64,000 bases of DNA from Methylophilus methylotrophus DSM 46235 = ATCC 53528. Lineage in GTDB: Bacteria; Pseudomonadota; Gammaproteobacteria; Burkholderiales; Methylophilaceae. Below are positions 1,181-58,454 of the stretch, one piece after another. How positions within the stretch are numbered: the stretch's first letter is position 1; the number at the start of each line of letters is the position of its first letter. The DNA lies in the NCBI RefSeq assembly GCF_000378225.1, contig NZ_KB905142.1, forward strand, positions 186,001 through 250,000, given 5' to 3'. The position numbers and the translations under genes were made by a program. The notes below the pieces were generated by a model that was not told the DNA's origin, made no database searches, and saw only the letters and a program-made list of their open reading frames with translations.

Positions 1181-2437
1181 TTATGCTCGAACGTGGCCGT
1201 CACCTAGAACGACATATTTCAGTGACGTCAGCCCTTCCAGGCCAACAGGACCGCGTGCATGCAGTTTGTCGGTAGAAATACCGATTTCTGCACCAAAGCC
1301 GTATTCAAAGCCGTCGGCAAAGCGCGTGGAGGCGTTGACCATGACGCTGCTGGAATCCACTTCGCGCAGGAACTGGCGTGCCTTGGTATAGTTTTCGGTG
1401 ACGATGGCTTCGGTGTGCTGGCTGGAGTATTTGTTGATGTGCTCAATCGCTTCATCCACGCCACTCACTACCTTGCACGAGATAATTGAATCAAGGTATT
1501 CGGTGTAATAGTCTTCCTCGGTCGCCGCTTTGGCTTGTGGCACGATGGCGCGGGTTTCATCACAGCCGCGGATTTCCACGCCTTTGCTCAGCAGCATCTC
1601 TGCCAGTTTAGGCAGGGCGGTTTTGGCAATGCTGCGGGCCACCAGCAGTGATTCTGCAGTGTTGCAGGTGCCCAGGCGCTGGGTTTTGGCATTCTCAAGA
1701 ATGCGCACGGCTTTTTCCAGGTCTGCTTCGTCATCGACATACACATGGCAGTTGCCGTCCAGGTGCTTGATGACTGGAATACGGGCGTCGTTGCTAATGC
1801 GCTCGATCAGGCCTTTGCCACCGCGTGGCACGATCACATCCACATATTGTTTCATGGTGATGATTTCACCCACGGCGGCGCGGTCTGTGGTTTCTACCAC
1901 GAGCACGGCGGCTTGTGGCAAGCCCGCCTGTTGCAGGCCCTGGTGCACGAGTTTGGCCAGCGCCTGGTTGCAGTGGATGGCTTCGGAGCCGCCACGCAAA
2001 ATACAGGCGTTGCCGGATTTAATGCACAGGCCGGCGGCATCTACTGTCACGTTAGGACGGGCTTCGTAAATAATGCCGATCACGCCCAGTGGCACGCGCA
2101 TCTGGCCGATCTGGATACCGGAAGGGCGGTATTTGAAATTGCCCATTTCGCCGATGGGGTCTGGCAGACTGGCGATTTGCTCCAGGCCTTCTGCCATGGT
2201 GGCGACAGATTTTTCGCTCAAGGCCAGGCGGTCGAGCATGGCAGACTCCATACCGTTGGCTTTGGCGGCGTTCATGTCTTGCTGGTTGGCCGCGAGCAGC
2301 GCTTTTTCGTGCTGGCGGATCAGGGCGGCAATATTGCGCAAGGCCTGGTTCTTGGTGTTGGTGTCGGCTTTTGCCATCAAACGGGAAGCGGCACGCGCCT
2401 GCTCACCCAGTTGTTTCATGTAGTGTTGAATGTCCAT
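1181..2437 (-). CDS. proA: Gamma-glutamyl phosphate reductase
   Basis: This enzyme reduces gamma-glutamyl phosphate to glutamate semialdehyde with NADPH in proline synthesis (cytosol). The frame is open from an ATG at 2443, and a second ATG two codons later ([13 protein letters not shown]) fits the usual N-terminus, so I start at 2437 (418 residues). The ALDH-fold catalytic cysteine is in [12 protein letters not shown] near residue 258. Conserved blocks include [20 protein letters not shown] and [14 protein letters not shown]. It lies 23 bp after holA and appears to be the last gene of the leuS-lptE-holA-proA run. The partner kinase proB is not nearby. Confidence 0.95.
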
Positions 2438-2460
2438 AACCATTATTCTATATTAAAACC

Positions 2461-3504
2461 TTAACGAGACCTTGCTGCCGCTGCCCTGGCAGATTTATTG
2501 GCTGCCATGCGCGCAATGCCGCTGCAAAGGCGGGAGAGCTCAAGCCAGGGGTCACCATCCCCTACGCCTTTTGCCATGCGGTCTATGTCTGACAATTTTT
2601 GCAAAGCAGCTTCGATATGTTTTTGCGGTAAAAATTCCAATGCGCGTTTCACCAGTATCTGGCGATCCCCAAATAACCGGGCCTGGCTCATGGCAGTTTG
2701 TGCGGCCTGGCCGTTTTGCATGGCGAGGCGTACCTGCAAGAGCGGGCGGAATAACCAGACCAGCGGATTCATGACGGCGACGGCGGTTTCACCTTCTTCA
2801 CGCAGGCCTTCAATAATGCGCATGACGCGGCTCTGGTCGCCTTGCAGCATGGCTTCTCCCAGCTGCGAGACATCAAAGCGTGCCACATTGAGTACGCATA
2901 GCCTGATGGCGTCTTCGGACAAGGGGCCAGGCGGGTAGAGCAGGCCCAGCTTCTGGATTTCCTGGTGTGCGGCGAGCAAATTGCCTTCTACCTGTTCGGC
3001 AATAAAACGGCGTGAGGCTTCATCGGCCGTTTGTTGCTGCATGGCCAGGCGTTGCGCAATCCACTCCGGTAATTGCGCCAGTGGCACCTGGTTAAGCACC
3101 AGTAACACGCCATGCTGTGACAGCGCTTCATACCAGGCGCTGCTGGTCATGTCGCGGTCTGGCGCGGGCAGGGTGATGATAATGGTGGTATCGGCTGCGG
3201 GTTGCTCGGCTAGTTGCTGCAGGGCCTTAGCGCCTTCTACGCCGGGTTTGCCGGTGGGGATGTTGATTTCGAGGATACGTTGCTCGGCAAACAGCGAAAA
3301 GCTTTGCAGGAACTGGCTGACTTGTCGCCAATTAAAGTAGCGTTCTACCGTAAAGCTGGCGCGTTCCTGAGCGCCATGCTGGCGCGCCGCGGCGCGGATC
3401 TGGTCTAGGGCTTCGGTGATGGAGAGCGGCTCGTCACCCGCCAGCACAAACAAGTGTTGTCTCGGCGGCAGGTGTTGAGCCAGTTGCGCTACCTGGATGC
3501 GCAT
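2461..3504 (-). CDS. holA: DNA polymerase III delta subunit
   Basis: Delta subunit of the clamp loader, which opens the beta sliding clamp during replication. The 347-residue protein has the HolA N-terminus (LFVLAGDEPLSITEALDQIR near residues 18-37), the DPPxxI-like region IEIN...GKPG, and the C-terminal helical domain (RQILVKRALEFLPQKHIEAAL). The start lies 2 bp downstream of the lptE stop, which implies translational coupling. The order leuS-lptE-holA is the one found across gamma- and betaproteobacteria and supports the call. Confidence 0.93.
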   Translation of the reverse strand: MRIQVAQLAQHLPPRQHLFVLAGDEPLSITEALDQIRAAARQHGAQERASFTVERYFNWRQVSQFLQSFSLFAEQRILEINIPTGKPGVEGAKALQQLAEQPAADTTIIITLPAPDRDMTSSAWYEALSQHGVLLVLNQVPLAQLPEWIAQRLAMQQQTADEASRRFIAEQVEGNLLAAHQEIQKLGLLYPPGPLSEDAIRLCVLNVARFDVSQLGEAMLQGDQSRVMRIIEGLREEGETAVAVMNPLVWLFRPLLQVRLAMQNGQAAQTAMSQARLFGDRQILVKRALEFLPQKHIEAALQKLSDIDRMAKGVGDGDPWLELSRLCSGIARMAANKSARAAAARSR

Positions 3505-3506
3505 GT

Positions 3507-4016
3507 TTATTGTGGCGCTTTTTTCAGCGCAGACAGGCGACGCAGAATGCCATTGAGGACATCGGTTTGCATGCTGTCGGTCAGCAGCTTTTGTTCGGCT
3601 TGTTTAGCCAGCAAGTTGGCGTCGTTATAGGTATAGTCACGACGGCCTTCCATAATCAGTGGTAAGGTCCACACGGCTTCTTCAGTCATTTTGGTACGGT
3701 ATTGCACGCGATAGTACAGTTCGTATTCCCGCACCACACCGGTACCGCTCAGAGACAGGATGCGCTGTTCGTTTTCTTCCTTAAGGAGGTCCAGTTGCAG
3801 TTCAGCATCTTGAGGATCGGCAACCACTTTGACGCCTTGCTCGGTCAGTGCAGTTTGGAGTGCCTTGTTGATCTGCGTTGTGCCTTTAATATGAATGGTT
3901 TTAAACGCAATCGGCGAAGGTTGGCGTAAATGGAAACCGCAAGCAGTAAGCATGACTGACAATGCCAGCATGCTCAACCAGACAGTCAGACTCTTATGCT
4001 TGAGTGTTAGCAGCAA
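3507..4016 (-). CDS. lptE: LPS-assembly lipoprotein LptE
   Basis: Outer-membrane lipoprotein that plugs the LptD barrel and helps insert LPS into the outer leaflet. The 169-residue precursor has a signal peptide ending in the lipobox LTAC with the lipidated cysteine at residue 26, followed by GFHLRQ as is typical of LptE. The rest is a small mixed alpha/beta domain. It sits 15 bp downstream of leuS and 2 bp upstream of holA. Its partner lptD is at 13036-15450. Sequence conservation in this family is low, so lipobox, length and position carry the call. Confidence 0.9.
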   Translation of the reverse strand: MLLTLKHKSLTVWLSMLALSVMLTACGFHLRQPSPIAFKTIHIKGTTQINKALQTALTEQGVKVVADPQDAELQLDLLKEENEQRILSLSGTGVVREYELYYRVQYRTKMTEEAVWTLPLIMEGRRDYTYNDANLLAKQAEQKLLTDSMQTDVLNGILRRLSALKKAPQ

Positions 4017-4031
4017 CGTTCGCTCCTTAGG

Positions 4032-6647
4032 TTAAGCCACCACAATATTAATCAGCTTGTTAGGCACCACAATGATTTTTTTCACACTGCCTTCATTGAG
4101 GAATTTCTGTACAAAGTCCTGGTTGACGGCGGTGGCTTCAATCTGTTCCTTGGCCATGCTCTTGGGAATGCTGATGCTGCCACGCAGTTTGCCGTTGACC
4201 TGCACCACGTATTCGACCTCATCTTGTACCAGTGCGGAGTTGGCAGGCTCTGGCCATTTGGCAGTCAGGATATCGGCACCCAATTTGAGACTTTGCCACA
4301 TGACTTGCGTGATATGGGGCGCGATAGGTGACAGCACGCGTAGCAGGATGCTGTAACCTTCAAAGGCGACGGCTTGCCAGTCTTTTTCAGCTTCTTTCTG
4401 CACTTTTTCCAGCGTGTTGAGTATTTTCATACAGGCGGATGCGACCGTATTGAATTGCAGTTTTGCCAGGTCAACATTGGCTTGTTTGAGCACGCTGTGG
4501 ATTTCACGCCTGTGATTGGCGAGTTCGCCAGTCAGCTTGGTTGGCAGGTCGGCTGGTTGGATGTCTGCCAAGGCGTAGCCAAAATTCCATACACGTTTCA
4601 GGAAGCGGTGTGAACCTTCCACGCCACTGTCTGACCATTCCAGGGTTTGCTCTGGCGGCGCAGCAAACATCATGAAGAAGCGCGCAGTATCTGCACCATA
4701 TTGTTCGATCAGGGATTGCGGGTCTACGCCGTTACGCTTGGACTTGGACATGGTGCCTATGCCCTGGTAATCAATGGCTGAGCCATCGGCTACCAGCTTG
4801 GCACCCGTGATTTTGCCGTTTTCGTCTTGTACCAGTTGCACTTCTTCTGGGGCAAAGTATTCAATGCCGCCTTTGGCGGTACGGCGCGAGAAAATATGGT
4901 TGAGCACCATGCCTTGCGTCAGCAGGTTGGCAAACGGCTCGTCGTAATTGACCAGGCCAAGATCGCGCATGACCTTGCTCCAGAAGCGGGAGTAGAGCAG
5001 ATGCAAAATGGCGTGTTCAATACCGCCAATATACTGGTCTACCGGCATCCAGTGGTTGGTTTGTGCATCGACCATGGCAGTGTCGCTAAAGCCTGAGGCA
5101 TAACGTGCGTAGTACCAGCTGGAATCCACAAAGGTATCCATGGTATCGGTTTCGCGTTTGGCTGGTTGGCCGCATTTTGGGCAAGTGCAATTCAAAAAGT
5201 CTTCGCGCTTGTTGAGCGGGTTACCTGAGCCATCCGGCACACAGTCTTCCGGCAGTTTGACCGGTAACTGGTCGTCTGGCACGGGAACGTCACCACAGCT
5301 GTCACAGTGGATGATAGGGATAGGGCAGCCCCAGTAACGCTGACGGGAGACCCCCCAGTCGCGCAGACGCCAGTTGGTCTGCTTACCGCCCAGATTTTTC
5401 TCGGCCAGGTCAGCAGCCACGGCATCCACGGCTTCAGTGTAGCCCATGTCATTGTATTTGCCTGAGTGTATGCACACGCCTTTGGTTTTGTCGCCGTACC
5501 ACTCTTGCCAGCTAGCGAGGTCAAACTCCTGGCCGACCACGCTAATCACTTGTTTGATCGGCAAGTTGTATTTCTTGGCAAAGCCAAAGTCACGCTCATC
5601 GTGTGCAGGCACGGCCATCACGGCACCTTCACCGTAAGTCATCAGCACATAGTTGCCCACCCAGACAGGCACCTGCTCACCTGTGATCGGATGCGTAACG
5701 GTCAGGCCAGTGTCCATGCCTTCTTTTTCCATGGTCGCCATGTCGGCTTCCATCACTGAGCCTTGTTTGCATTTTTCGATAAACGCTTGCAGCGCCGGGT
5801 TGTTTTGCGCCGCATGCGTGGCGAGTGGATGTTCTGCTGCCACAGCACAGAAAGTGACGCCCATGATGGTGTCGGCACGTGTGGTGAATACCCACAGTTT
5901 GCCGCCATCAATTAACTGGTTGTCACTGTTTTTGATATCGTGCGTAAAGGCAAAGCGCACACCAACGCTCTTGCCTATCCAGTTGGCCTGCATGGTTTTC
6001 ACACGCTCTGGCCAACCTGGCAGTTTGTCGAGGTCATCCAGCAGTTGCTGGGCGTAGCCGGTGATGTTGAGATAGTAGCCGGGGATTTCACGTTTCTCGA
6101 CCACGGCGCCCGTACGCCAGCCACGGCCATCAATCACCTGTTCGTTGGCGAGTACGGTCTGGTCAACCGGATCCCAGTTCACCACCTGGGTTTTTTTATA
6201 GGCAATGCCTTTTTCCAGCATGCGTAAAAACAGCCACTGGTTCCATTTGTAATAATCAGGCTGGCAGGTAGCCAGTTCACGGCTCCAGTCGATGGCAAAC
6301 CCCAGCGATTTGAGCTGCTTGCGCATATAGGCAATATTGTCATATGTCCATTGCGCGGGCGGCACGCTGTTCTGGATAGCCGCATTTTCAGCAGGCAGGC
6401 CAAACGCATCCCAGCCCATGGGCTGCAATACATTAAAGCCTTTCATGTGGTGGTAGCGGCTTAACACGTCACCAATGGTGTAGTTGCGTACATGCCCCAT
6501 ATGCAGTTTTCCACTAGGGTAGGGGAACATGGACAGGCAATAGTATTTGGGTTTGTTGCTATCAGTCTTGGCCTGAAAGCTGAGATTGGACTCCCAATGT
6601 TGTTGTGCCTGTTGTTCGACTTCTTTGAATGGATACTGCTGTTGCAT
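4032..6647 (-). CDS. leuS: Leucyl-tRNA synthetase
   Basis: Class I synthetase charging tRNA-Leu. The 871-residue length matches bacterial LeuS. HMGH (HIGH motif) is at residues 49-52. The CP1 editing domain carries [12 protein letters not shown] near 255. A zinc-binding-like insertion has CDSCGD at 448 and CPKCG at 489. The KMSKS loop is present as TMSKS at 632-636, followed by the anticodon-binding domain. It is the first gene of a minus-strand run with lptE, holA and proA. The 300-bp region upstream is shared with the divergent TonB receptor gene. Confidence 0.98.
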
Positions 6648-56051: not shown

Positions 56052-58454
56052 ATGCGTAATTCTATCTTATTTGTGTTGGTTGTCGCATCTCTGGAGAGTG
56101 GGTGCGGTGCCAAGCTTCCTTCAGTCAAGCCTTTCAAGATGGAAGTTCAGCAAGGCAATGTTGTGACTTCCAAGATGTTGCTTCAGCTGCGACCGGGCAT
56201 GACTCGTTCCCAAGTGCGCTATATCATGGGGACACCGCTAGTAGTCGATAGTTTCCGTGACAACCGTTGGGATTATTTTTACGAGCTGCGCAAGGAAGGA
56301 AAAGTGGTTGAAAAGCGCCGCGTGATTCTTGATTTCGACAAGGATAGCCTGGTGTCAGTACGCGGCGATGTGATTCCATCTGCTGAAAATCCTGAGATAA
56401 AAACAATCGCAGAAACACCTCAGAAGAAGGTTGGAGAAGCAAAAGATCAGAGTTGGACGGACAAGCTGAAGTTTTGGGAGTCTGAAGAAGCTGCGGCGAG
56501 TGATAAAGCAGCTGAATCAACTGTAGCCACTGCAGCGACGAATGAAAGCAAAGGCGCTGCACTCGCTAAGGATGAGGCAGCCGAATCTCAGAAAACCACG
56601 TCAGAGCCTGTCAAGGCCGAGCAAGAGGTATTGCCCTCGGCCACTGCAACAAATAATTCAGCTGCTGCAGCGACATTGGCTGAAGAAGAAGTGGTTCCCT
56701 ACATTCCGGAGGGGGAGTATCAGGCTGCACCCACTCCAGAAGAGATGGCCAAGGGTAATCTGGATGTCAGTGAAAACCAGGTTACTGAGGCTAAGGCACA
56801 TCCAGTGAATGAAAAGGAAATGGCTGCCCAAATTGCAGATACGGTTGAGCCACCACCCGTTTTTCAGCAGGAACCGATGGCAGAACCTATTGTAGCGGCT
56901 GAACCCGAACCCGTATTGCCACCGCCCGTAAAAGCCGAACCAGCTGTGAAGAATATCACAGCGCCAGTTGTTGCCGCAGCCACTGTTGCAGCGGCGGCAA
57001 CCAAGACTGCTGAATCTGAGTCAGTTAAATCCAAACCTGTTGATCCTAAGCCTGTGGAAGCAAAAACCGCTGTATCAAAAACTGAAGTACAAACACCCGC
57101 GGCACAGGCACCTGCTGCGGCAGCGGCCGTTGAAGATGACGAGGTCATTCCATATATTCCCGAAGGTGAATATGTGGCTCCTGTCATTCCTAGTGAGGCC
57201 GAAATGGTTAAAGGCAATATGGCGGAGGCAAATGCACCTGCGACTGATGCTCAAGCGCGCCAGGTAACTGAAAAAGGGGTGGCACCCACATCGGATGCGG
57301 CAGCAGAGCCATCACCGACATTTGTCGCTGAGCAATTGCCAGAACCAGAGCCAGAACCTGAATTGCCACCGCCGCCTCCGCCATCCGTCAGCAAGCCTGT
57401 TGTGAGAGAGGTAGCGCCAGTGGCTGCGCTGGCAGCAGAAGAAGAGAAACCAGTCGCTGCGCAGCCTGAGACTGAGCAGCCGGCTGCCAAGGTTGTTGAG
57501 CCTGCATCGGTCGCCTCCCCTGTGGCGACGCCAGAAGCGCCAGCTGGTGATGCTGAAATCAACCAGGCTGTGGCGGCATGGGCACAAGCTTGGCGCAGCA
57601 AGGACATTAAAAACTACCTCGCTGCATATGCCCCTGACTTCATGCCAGAAGGGTTGCCTTCCAGAAAGGCATGGGAGTCGCAACGCAAACAGCGTTTATC
57701 TGCAGGCCAGGGTGCGATTACACTCGTACTAAATAATGTGCAGATTCAGCGTGACGGTACCACTGTCGCCGTGCAGTTTGAGCAAAAATATGCTGCTAAA
57801 GTTTATAAAGATGAATTGGTCAAAACACTGGAAATGCGTTACGAGCCAACGCAGAAACGTTGGTTGATCACACGTGAACGTGTTGCCCCTTTAACCGGTT
57901 TGCCAGTAGCGAGTGTGCCAACGACCCGTCTGCCAGCAGTCGCTGCAGCGTCATCCAATACGGATGTGGTCGAGTCAGCTGTGCCACCGACACAATCGAC
58001 ATCATCTGCGCCTGTAGCGGAAGTGAGTGTTGAATCAGCGATTGACGCCTGGGCACAGGCTTGGCGCAGTAAAAACATCAATGCTTACTTTGCGGCGTAT
58101 TCTCCAGAATTTGTGCCGGAGGGATTGCCAAACAGAGGTGTCTGGGAAGCGCAACGTAAAAAGCGCTTGTCCCCACAGCAGGGCAAGATCAGCCTGGATG
58201 TCACGAATGTAAGCGTGAGCCGCGAAGGAGAAACAGCCGTGGCCACCTTTAGGCAGAAATATGCGTCTAAGGCCTATCGTGATGAAGTAGTGAAGCGTCT
58301 ACAGTTAAAACTGGATGCTGCAAGCAATCGCTGGCTGATTGTGCGTGAAAGTACCGGTAGTGAGGCAGAAGTGCCAATGGGCAAGCAGTCAGTGAGTGCG
58401 CCAGAAGAGAGCTCGGAACATCAGGATGGTGCTCTGGAGCCGATCGGATTTTAA
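56052..58454 (+). CDS. bamE: BamE fused to a duplicated-motif linker and two NTF2-like domains
   Basis: BamE lipoproteins help the Bam complex fold outer-membrane barrels and are usually 110-180 residues. This one is 800. The ATG at 56052 gives a signal peptide with Cys18 (LESGCGAK). The BamE/SmpA domain spans about 30-110 (LRPGMTRSQVRYIMGTPLVV, DNRWDYFYELRK). Then comes a 390-residue Ala/Pro/Glu linker with two copies of a block (PYIPEGEY at 216-223 and 367-374; MxKGN about 15-20 residues later). Two NTF2-like repeats follow, about 501-613 and 657-768 (WAQAWRSK in both). These resemble the Cds6-type domain of L,D-transpeptidase-related proteins. The frame upstream of 56052 is open but not plausible. 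Confidence 0.85.
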   Translation: MRNSILFVLVVASLESGCGAKLPSVKPFKMEVQQGNVVTSKMLLQLRPGMTRSQVRYIMGTPLVVDSFRDNRWDYFYELRKEGKVVEKRRVILDFDKDSLVSVRGDVIPSAENPEIKTIAETPQKKVGEAKDQSWTDKLKFWESEEAAASDKAAESTVATAATNESKGAALAKDEAAESQKTTSEPVKAEQEVLPSATATNNSAAAATLAEEEVVPYIPEGEYQAAPTPEEMAKGNLDVSENQVTEAKAHPVNEKEMAAQIADTVEPPPVFQQEPMAEPIVAAEPEPVLPPPVKAEPAVKNITAPVVAAATVAAAATKTAESESVKSKPVDPKPVEAKTAVSKTEVQTPAAQAPAAAAAVEDDEVIPYIPEGEYVAPVIPSEAEMVKGNMAEANAPATDAQARQVTEKGVAPTSDAAAEPSPTFVAEQLPEPEPEPELPPPPPPSVSKPVVREVAPVAALAAEEEKPVAAQPETEQPAAKVVEPASVASPVATPEAPAGDAEINQAVAAWAQAWRSKDIKNYLAAYAPDFMPEGLPSRKAWESQRKQRLSAGQGAITLVLNNVQIQRDGTTVAVQFEQKYAAKVYKDELVKTLEMRYEPTQKRWLITRERVAPLTGLPVASVPTTRLPAVAAASSNTDVVESAVPPTQSTSSAPVAEVSVESAIDAWAQAWRSKNINAYFAAYSPEFVPEGLPNRGVWEAQRKKRLSPQQGKISLDVTNVSVSREGETAVATFRQKYASKAYRDEVVKRLQLKLDAASNRWLIVRESTGSEAEVPMGKQSVSAPEESSEHQDGALEPIGF

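Follow-up and report, generated by a model that had tools for sequence, protein, structure and literature searches.

The 64,000-nucleotide stretch of Methylophilus methylotrophus DSM 46235 = ATCC 53528 analysed here (the window; contig NZ_KB905142.1, positions 186,001 to 250,000) carries on its forward strand, at 56052-58454, a bamE gene whose product, by translation of the open reading frame (ORF) and Pfam search, is an 800-residue protein with two NTF2-like domains. BamE is a subunit of the β-barrel assembly machinery (BAM) of the outer membrane. Of 150 genomes of the same family that we searched, 143 gave a BamE match, and the two-domain form was found in 14 of them, the window's included. 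The gene comprises 800 stop-free codons (56052-58451) and a stop codon at 58452-58454, in agreement with the unbroken 2.4-kb frame described in an earlier note on this DNA, and the frame is open in all 14 aligned two-domain proteins. Ratios of non-synonymous to synonymous substitution rates (dN/dS) lie between 0.00 and 0.10 for each NTF2 copy in four close pairs; two more pairs had saturated or non-computable dS. Because the frame is open throughout and its codons are under purifying selection, a missed stop codon, frameshift or sequencing error between BamE and the repeats, which could have made the latter part of a separate gene, is excluded in practice.

Architecture of the BamE fusion protein

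The earlier placing of a BamE domain at residues 30-110 was correct: Pfam family PF04355 (SmpA/OmlA) matches residues 35-103 (56154-56360), an assignment that also draws on solved BamE chains, with an E value of 1.1e-24 and 86.5 bits against a cut-off of 23.2, covering positions 1-69 of the 71 in the model. The NCBIfam equivalog PRK11548, a 113-position model presumably built on short enterobacterial BamE, gave 45 bits and stayed below its cut-off of 93. A second PF04355 match was absent from the window's genome at E <= 0.001, and the gene was accordingly rejected as a paralogue of another BamE; since the match is single, this protein would be the BAM subunit, if the genome has one, and a BamC match is also present. 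The signal sequence (56052-56105) ends at Cys18 in the motif LESGC, recognised by the lipobox rule, and this residue would be the putative site of lipidation; it is invariant in the 14 two-domain proteins, of which 12 have Glu at -3, one has Gly and one has Gln. The protein resembles other BamE proteins in its complete BamE domain, single among the genome's matches, and in its lipoprotein-like N-terminus, and differs from them in about 690 additional residues that include the two NTF2-like domains; Escherichia coli BamE is described as a protein of about 12 kDa that touches POTRA5 and BamD (PMC13067283). We expect the N-terminal domain to dock on BAM. In a full-length AlphaFold model the BamE part is not folded, with predicted local distance difference test (pLDDT) values nearly all <50, perhaps because the alignment held close relatives only, and this has no bearing on its identity as BamE.

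Shortly after the BamE domain comes the motif WTDKLKFW (residues 135-142; 56454-56477), identified by alignment; the corresponding LxFW motif occurs in 119 of the 143 family members. An Ala/Glu/Pro-rich linker extends over residues 111-500 (56382-57551) and is predicted to be disordered (pLDDT mostly <50), its length and composition being those reported before. Self-alignment places one block of this linker at residues 206-292 (56667-56927; PYIPEGEY...MAKGN) and again at residues 357-441 (57120-57374; PYIPEGEY...MVKGN...VTEKGVA), with 41 identities in 89 alignment columns (46%), a score reached by none of 2000 residue-shuffled controls. The duplication proposed earlier therefore stands, whereas the extent proposed for it does not, the block being far longer than PYIPEGEY plus MxKGN. 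Across the 14 aligned two-domain proteins the second copy is better conserved than the first and has many invariant positions.

The two NTF2-like domains occupy residues 503-609 (57558-57878; detected by Pfam, genome profile search and AlphaFold) and residues 660-766 (58029-58349; genome profile search and AlphaFold). They belong to the Pfam family Cds6_C (PF24125), whose "Cds6" we take to mean Csd6 of Helicobacter. In the Pfam search the whole protein scored 4.3e-28 in two stretches, the best at 503-609, and in the genome profile search the copies reached 55.1 and 53.5 bits against a cut-off of 27. Two repeats of the Cds6/L,D-transpeptidase type had been proposed, and to that extent the proposal holds; they are not near-identical, as had also been claimed, but only about 50% identical, with 58 of 114 core columns shared (51%) and 61 identities in the full alignment of 123 columns, a score reached by 0 of 2000 shuffled controls. 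Structure prediction, suggested in the earlier note as a check, gave two confident NTF2 folds for residues 492-800 (pLDDT ~85-94 per ten-residue block), with disorder between them and after the second. The protein closes with a tail, conserved in alignment, at residues 783-800 (58398-58451), which ends in IGF.

The putative ligand pocket of the NTF2-like domains

The nearest experimentally studied relatives of these domains are found in L,D-carboxypeptidases. A sequence-profile search of solved structures placed Bd1075 of Bdellovibrio (3.9e-10), Pgp2 of Campylobacter (0.0052) and Csd6 (0.0081) as its top three. With the model of residues 492-800, Foldseek gave Bd1075 (7o21) as the best single-domain match (root-mean-square deviation 2.2, 26% identity) at rank 12, the eleven rows above it being long alignments across both domains with deviations >14; Pgp2 (rank 19) and Csd6 (rank 29) stood behind other NTF2-like proteins. 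The domain family, fold and pocket residues are shared with the three enzymes. In contrast to them, the BamE fusion protein gave no match to the YkuD catalytic domain in the Pfam search, has two NTF2 copies and uses BamE as the carrier.

The pocket of the Pgp2 NTF2 domain is reported to bind peptidoglycan, digested peptidoglycan perturbing it in nuclear magnetic resonance spectra, and substitutions there at Y233, F242, K257, K307 and E324 straightened cells to differing extents, while sacculi pulled down little of the K307A variant (PMC8038945). For Bd1075, targeting of the enzyme is described as a function of the NTF2 domain, with Y274 as the floor of its pocket (PMC8938487). These six positions correspond to Y522, F530, R545, Y580, K591 and E609 in domain 1 and to Y679, F687, R702, Y737, K748 and E766 in domain 2; Pgp2 E324 lies beyond the end of the Pgp2 alignment and was positioned by way of Bd1075. 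Both copies therefore keep the pocket residues, with Arg in place of one Lys and with the Y274 equivalent retained. The first two positions (Y, F) and the last two (K, E) are kept in all 47 fused domains, and the R and the second Y in 46 each, both exceptions occurring in a single genome (G024); all six positions are among the 20 near-invariant columns of 114. The set's 46 free domains also mostly keep them, so that these residues are characteristic of the domain family and not of the fusion as such.

We propose, with a probability of about 0.6, that this protein is a BAM subunit with built-in peptidoglycan-binding modules, and that its NTF2 domains tether BAM to the wall or read the wall. The link to the cell wall suspected in the earlier note draws support from the Pgp2 pocket, which binds peptidoglycan and whose tested residues are kept here; tethering through the BamE fusion remains a proposal. 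Both peptidoglycan binding by these domains and an effect on the position or activity of BAM are what we infer from these comparisons.

A different ligand would change this reading. The domains might bind a periplasmic protein or small-molecule partner, such as a chaperone, an envelope enzyme or the protein's own PYIPEGEY blocks, and BamE would then be a recruitment arm without peptidoglycan contact. NTF2-like folds take varied ligands, and in the Bd1075 crystal the pocket is described as filled by a Pro-Lys loop of a neighbouring molecule (PMC8938487). IPEGEY is strongly conserved within an otherwise variable linker: it is present in 14 of 14 two-domain proteins, against none of the 124 other complete family members, which have one NTF2 domain or none, and once in a truncated gene (G006), although the two-domain proteins form one clade and offer few independent cases. 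Its exact matches in the genome lie only in bamE. Set against these points, the motif occurs twice in 12 of the 14 and just once in the other two (copy 1 retains it in 12), the blocks have no confident structure in the full-length model, the nearest studied domains act on or at peptidoglycan, and one relative within the family (G085, locus L085), which is without the IGF tail, carries an OmpA-family domain (PF00691, 1.2e-19) on BamE in the place of NTF2. We regard partner binding as unlikely, if worth keeping in view. Separately, we rejected the idea that the YIPEGEY block is shared with other proteins of the genome: there are two exact matches, both in bamE, and one further site matches with 2 mismatches.

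The behaviour of Bd1075 suggests another role, in which the NTF2 domains would place BAM at a particular region of the cell and be neither tether nor tuner. The Tyr equivalent to Y274 is kept in both copies, as this would predict, but localisation of Bd1075 is reported to have depended on a domain end that is specific to Bdellovibrio and includes W303 (PMC8938487), and W303 is not conserved here, where Val (copy 1) and Thr (copy 2) align with it. A positioning device is thus improbable, and we continue with peptidoglycan binding as the preferred reading.

Distribution and history of the fusion

The fusion is shared by relatives, as the earlier note had asked to be checked: of the 143 family BamE proteins, 33 have NTF2 domains, two in 14 cases and one in 19, and 110 have none. 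Contig ends truncate five of the genes (G006, G072, G099, G105 and G150), G099 being counted among the 19 and the other four among the 110; the seven genomes without a BamE match are each <=85% complete. The gene was found in 21 genomes of the window's genus: 14 have the two-domain form and five the one-domain form, one has no domain (G015) and one is cut before the place (G006). In a scan of named genomes, 14 loci were found, of which nine from Methylophilus and one labelled Methylophilaceae match beyond BamE and four others over BamE only.

In a tree of the NTF2 domains the 14 first copies group together and so, at a higher level, do all 28 copies, each group with support of 100/100, though the tree has few columns (123) for its 93 rows. 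This grouping points to a single tandem duplication, which most likely happened once in the genus, as far as the sequences tell. A single origin of all the fusions, by comparison, found no support: the NTF2 tree needs three changes, with G024 standing apart and a free domain of an HlyD-like protein (L182) falling inside the fused group, and the BamE tree needs four, one of which stems from G006, labelled domain-free although cut before the place. The BamE tree holds 114 of the 143 proteins, leaving out g14 and g16 genomes numbered above 100, and likewise has few columns. The C-terminal half seems, moreover, to move between lineages. Two of the 23 g7 genomes (G160 and G164) have a BamE that groups with g7 (Shimodaira-Hasegawa-like approximate likelihood ratio test 96) and NTF2 domains that join those of the fused proteins in the window's genus at 89/85, below the tool's support mark, and between G002 and G020 dS is 1.2 for BamE and 1.06 for the linker but 0.34 and 0.36 for the NTF2 domains.

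Such a pattern might also be expected if the additions were neutral or nearly so, with BamE tolerating added sequence ahead of its tail and the NTF2 domains contributing little. Most family members are without NTF2 domains, linker length varies freely, and the C-terminal half is seemingly exchanged between lineages. Both copies are nevertheless under purifying selection and keep their pocket residues, and the pairing of BamE with NTF2 recurs in several lineages, for which reasons we hold near-neutrality to be very improbable and retain a wall-binding role as the better account.

Outside the family we surveyed, among the matches listed, 150 genomes of the order (five of them of the window's own family) and 140 of the class (five without a match), G000 and G197 being in both sets. 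Twenty long frames were read, including every listed one of >=306 residues outside the family except that of G038, which was read separately and breaks off within its linker; of the listed frames of about 250-300 residues, that of G283 alone was read, and the resulting count is a lower bound. A BamE-Cds6_C fusion was found in at least two of these genomes, G200 and G330, which are in neither tree and whose distance suggests that their fusions arose independently of the family's. Besides its ordinary BamE, G039 encodes another BamE-like protein that carries Cds6_C; in the NTF2 tree the domain of this paralogue does not fall within the fused group.

Cds6_C-type domains also occur on other carriers. 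Within the family, Pfam places one close to the C-terminal end of an outer membrane efflux protein resembling TolC (L190) and one inside the HlyD-like protein of L182. The fused-domain profile alone detects a third, with which a large membrane protein (L207) ends. The TolC-like and HlyD-like cases fit a general envelope-to-wall module, but fit other roles as well. The window's genome has two further Cds6_C genes, which adjoin each other (L083 3804-6224; G000 contig C8) and encode a protein with the L,D-transpeptidase fold YkuD and a TPR protein; they are perhaps a wall-remodelling pair.

The C-terminal tail and the KFW motif, neither of which figured in the earlier note, bear on the order of events. 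A C-terminal peptide ending in [IV]GF is present in 137 of 138 complete family members, in many of them as PGYFERMLEKIGF, and is worn down to about LEQIGF in the two-domain clade. Short tails (EKGFFGRMIEKIGF and similar) end the ordinary-sized BamE of G041, G042 and G050 (three of 24 order-level genes read), and such tails occur in two of the 20 long frames as well (L225 and L240). Because short forms end BamE proteins of ordinary size, the tail appears, on sequence comparison, to predate the long linker and the NTF2 domains, which would then be insertions into the linker between BamE and the tail. By eye it resembles an amphipathic helix, and our guess is that it touches the membrane, BamA or BamD; the three alignments listed with solved BamE chains do not extend to it. 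In three loci from other families (L224, L226 and L228), the BamE tail contains several copies of a short motif, similar to RSFGERFMRLLGFGKKEE or to GKTIMEQVREKFGFGDDE, which by eye are reminiscent of KFW and IGF in the window's family.

Possible coupling of BAM to the cell wall

How outer-membrane assembly keeps step with growth of the wall is an open question, and a BAM machine with an NTF2-bearing BamE may be physically tied to the wall or sense it. We envisage that the N-terminal BamE domain docks on the BAM complex as usual, that the long disordered arm carries the two Csd6-type NTF2 domains towards the peptidoglycan layer, and that muropeptides bind in their pockets there. Weak binding to the wall by each of two modules, joined to a subunit held at the membrane, would provide avidity and could keep BAM near peptidoglycan or make it responsive to it. 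A single NTF2 domain may bind weakly, because Pgp2 needs both its domains for tight binding; here two NTF2 copies, BamE and a membrane anchor could supply the avidity. E. coli BAM is itself reported to bind peptidoglycan through several subunits, BamE alone binding in vitro, and its activity to be lowered by tetrapeptide-rich, and hardly by pentapeptide-rich, peptidoglycan (PMC9242858).

BamE has been paired repeatedly with domains of wall-binding type, Cds6_C in several lineages and OmpA in G085, and what is joined to the BAM subunit, twice in some species, is a recognisable module with wall-binding or wall-located relatives. The window's genome has seven OmpA-family matches and none to Lpp at E <= 0.001. 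In considering other systems we take RmpM of Neisseria to be a wall-binding protein and TpgA of Acinetobacter to have an OmpA-like wall-binding domain. Caulobacter BAM carries Pal (PMC2797634) and Neisseria BAM associates with RmpM (PMC6604945); as here, BAM is associated with a peptidoglycan-binding envelope protein or module, but there it is a separate OmpA-type partner, whereas here the module is of the NTF2 type and lies within BamE. TpgA is a peptidoglycan-binding periplasmic protein that serves a trimeric autotransporter (PMC13082670, PMC6604945), and a stretch of it weakly resembles BamE (0.0076 with the NCBIfam TpgA model, 0.02 with chain 9vnj); the match to the AutTranAdhPGAsTpgA equivalog, at 15.5 bits, stayed below the cut-off of 350, and PMC13082670 makes no mention of BamE. 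Wall-binding-type domains carried within a BAM subunit are thus a new variation on the known theme of BAM-wall coupling, and we found no BamE fused to an NTF2-like domain in the literature (searches for BamE with NTF2-like and Cds6 with NTF2, titles among the matches listed).

Several observations weigh against such coupling. Glu at -3 is unusual for a lipoprotein signal. The NTF2 domains are dispensable, since 110 of the 143 family members (four of them cut) show none. Most of the best 50 Foldseek rows are other proteins, NTF2-like folds serving many ligands, and Cds6_C may be a module of general use in the envelope, being found also on proteins that resemble TolC and HlyD. Conservation of the pocket is no independent test, because the Pgp2 sites were picked from conserved residues. 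Active-site-dead variants of Pgp2 are reported to have been pulled down poorly as well, the NTF2-pocket variant Y233F without impairment, and tight binding to have required the catalytic domain too (PMC8038945). The E. coli BamCDE complex reportedly did not bind soluble tetrapeptide chains, and in-cell cross-linking to peptidoglycan names BamA and BamC, not BamE (PMC9242858).

A more elaborate form of wall reading, a built-in peptidoglycan sensor, appears doubtful at best. The NTF2 pockets would read stem peptides in competition between the wall and the PYIPEGEY blocks, and the state of the pocket would pass through BamE to BamA/BamD, so that insertion of outer-membrane proteins followed wall growth. 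The IPEGEY counts cut both ways, since the motif is confined to the two-domain clade, yet two of its 14 members have one block. For the simpler link between BAM and the wall, close relatives with zero, one and two domains amount to a natural experiment, and the link is therefore testable by domain removal.

The neighbours of bamE in the window, both recognised by eye, are a fur-like ORF on the opposite strand and a dapB-like ORF. Among other genomes, a BamE domain stands N-terminal to LptD in L239 (G419; 1672-4392, + strand), where BamE (1.8e-18) and LptD (4.1e-68) share one frame of 907 residues. In L155 (G027) BamE (2.6e-19) lies in a frame cut by the fetched stretch, that piece giving no LptD match, and BamE-bearing frames of 951-995 residues in G153, G113, G166, G105 and G035 are further candidates for this arrangement.
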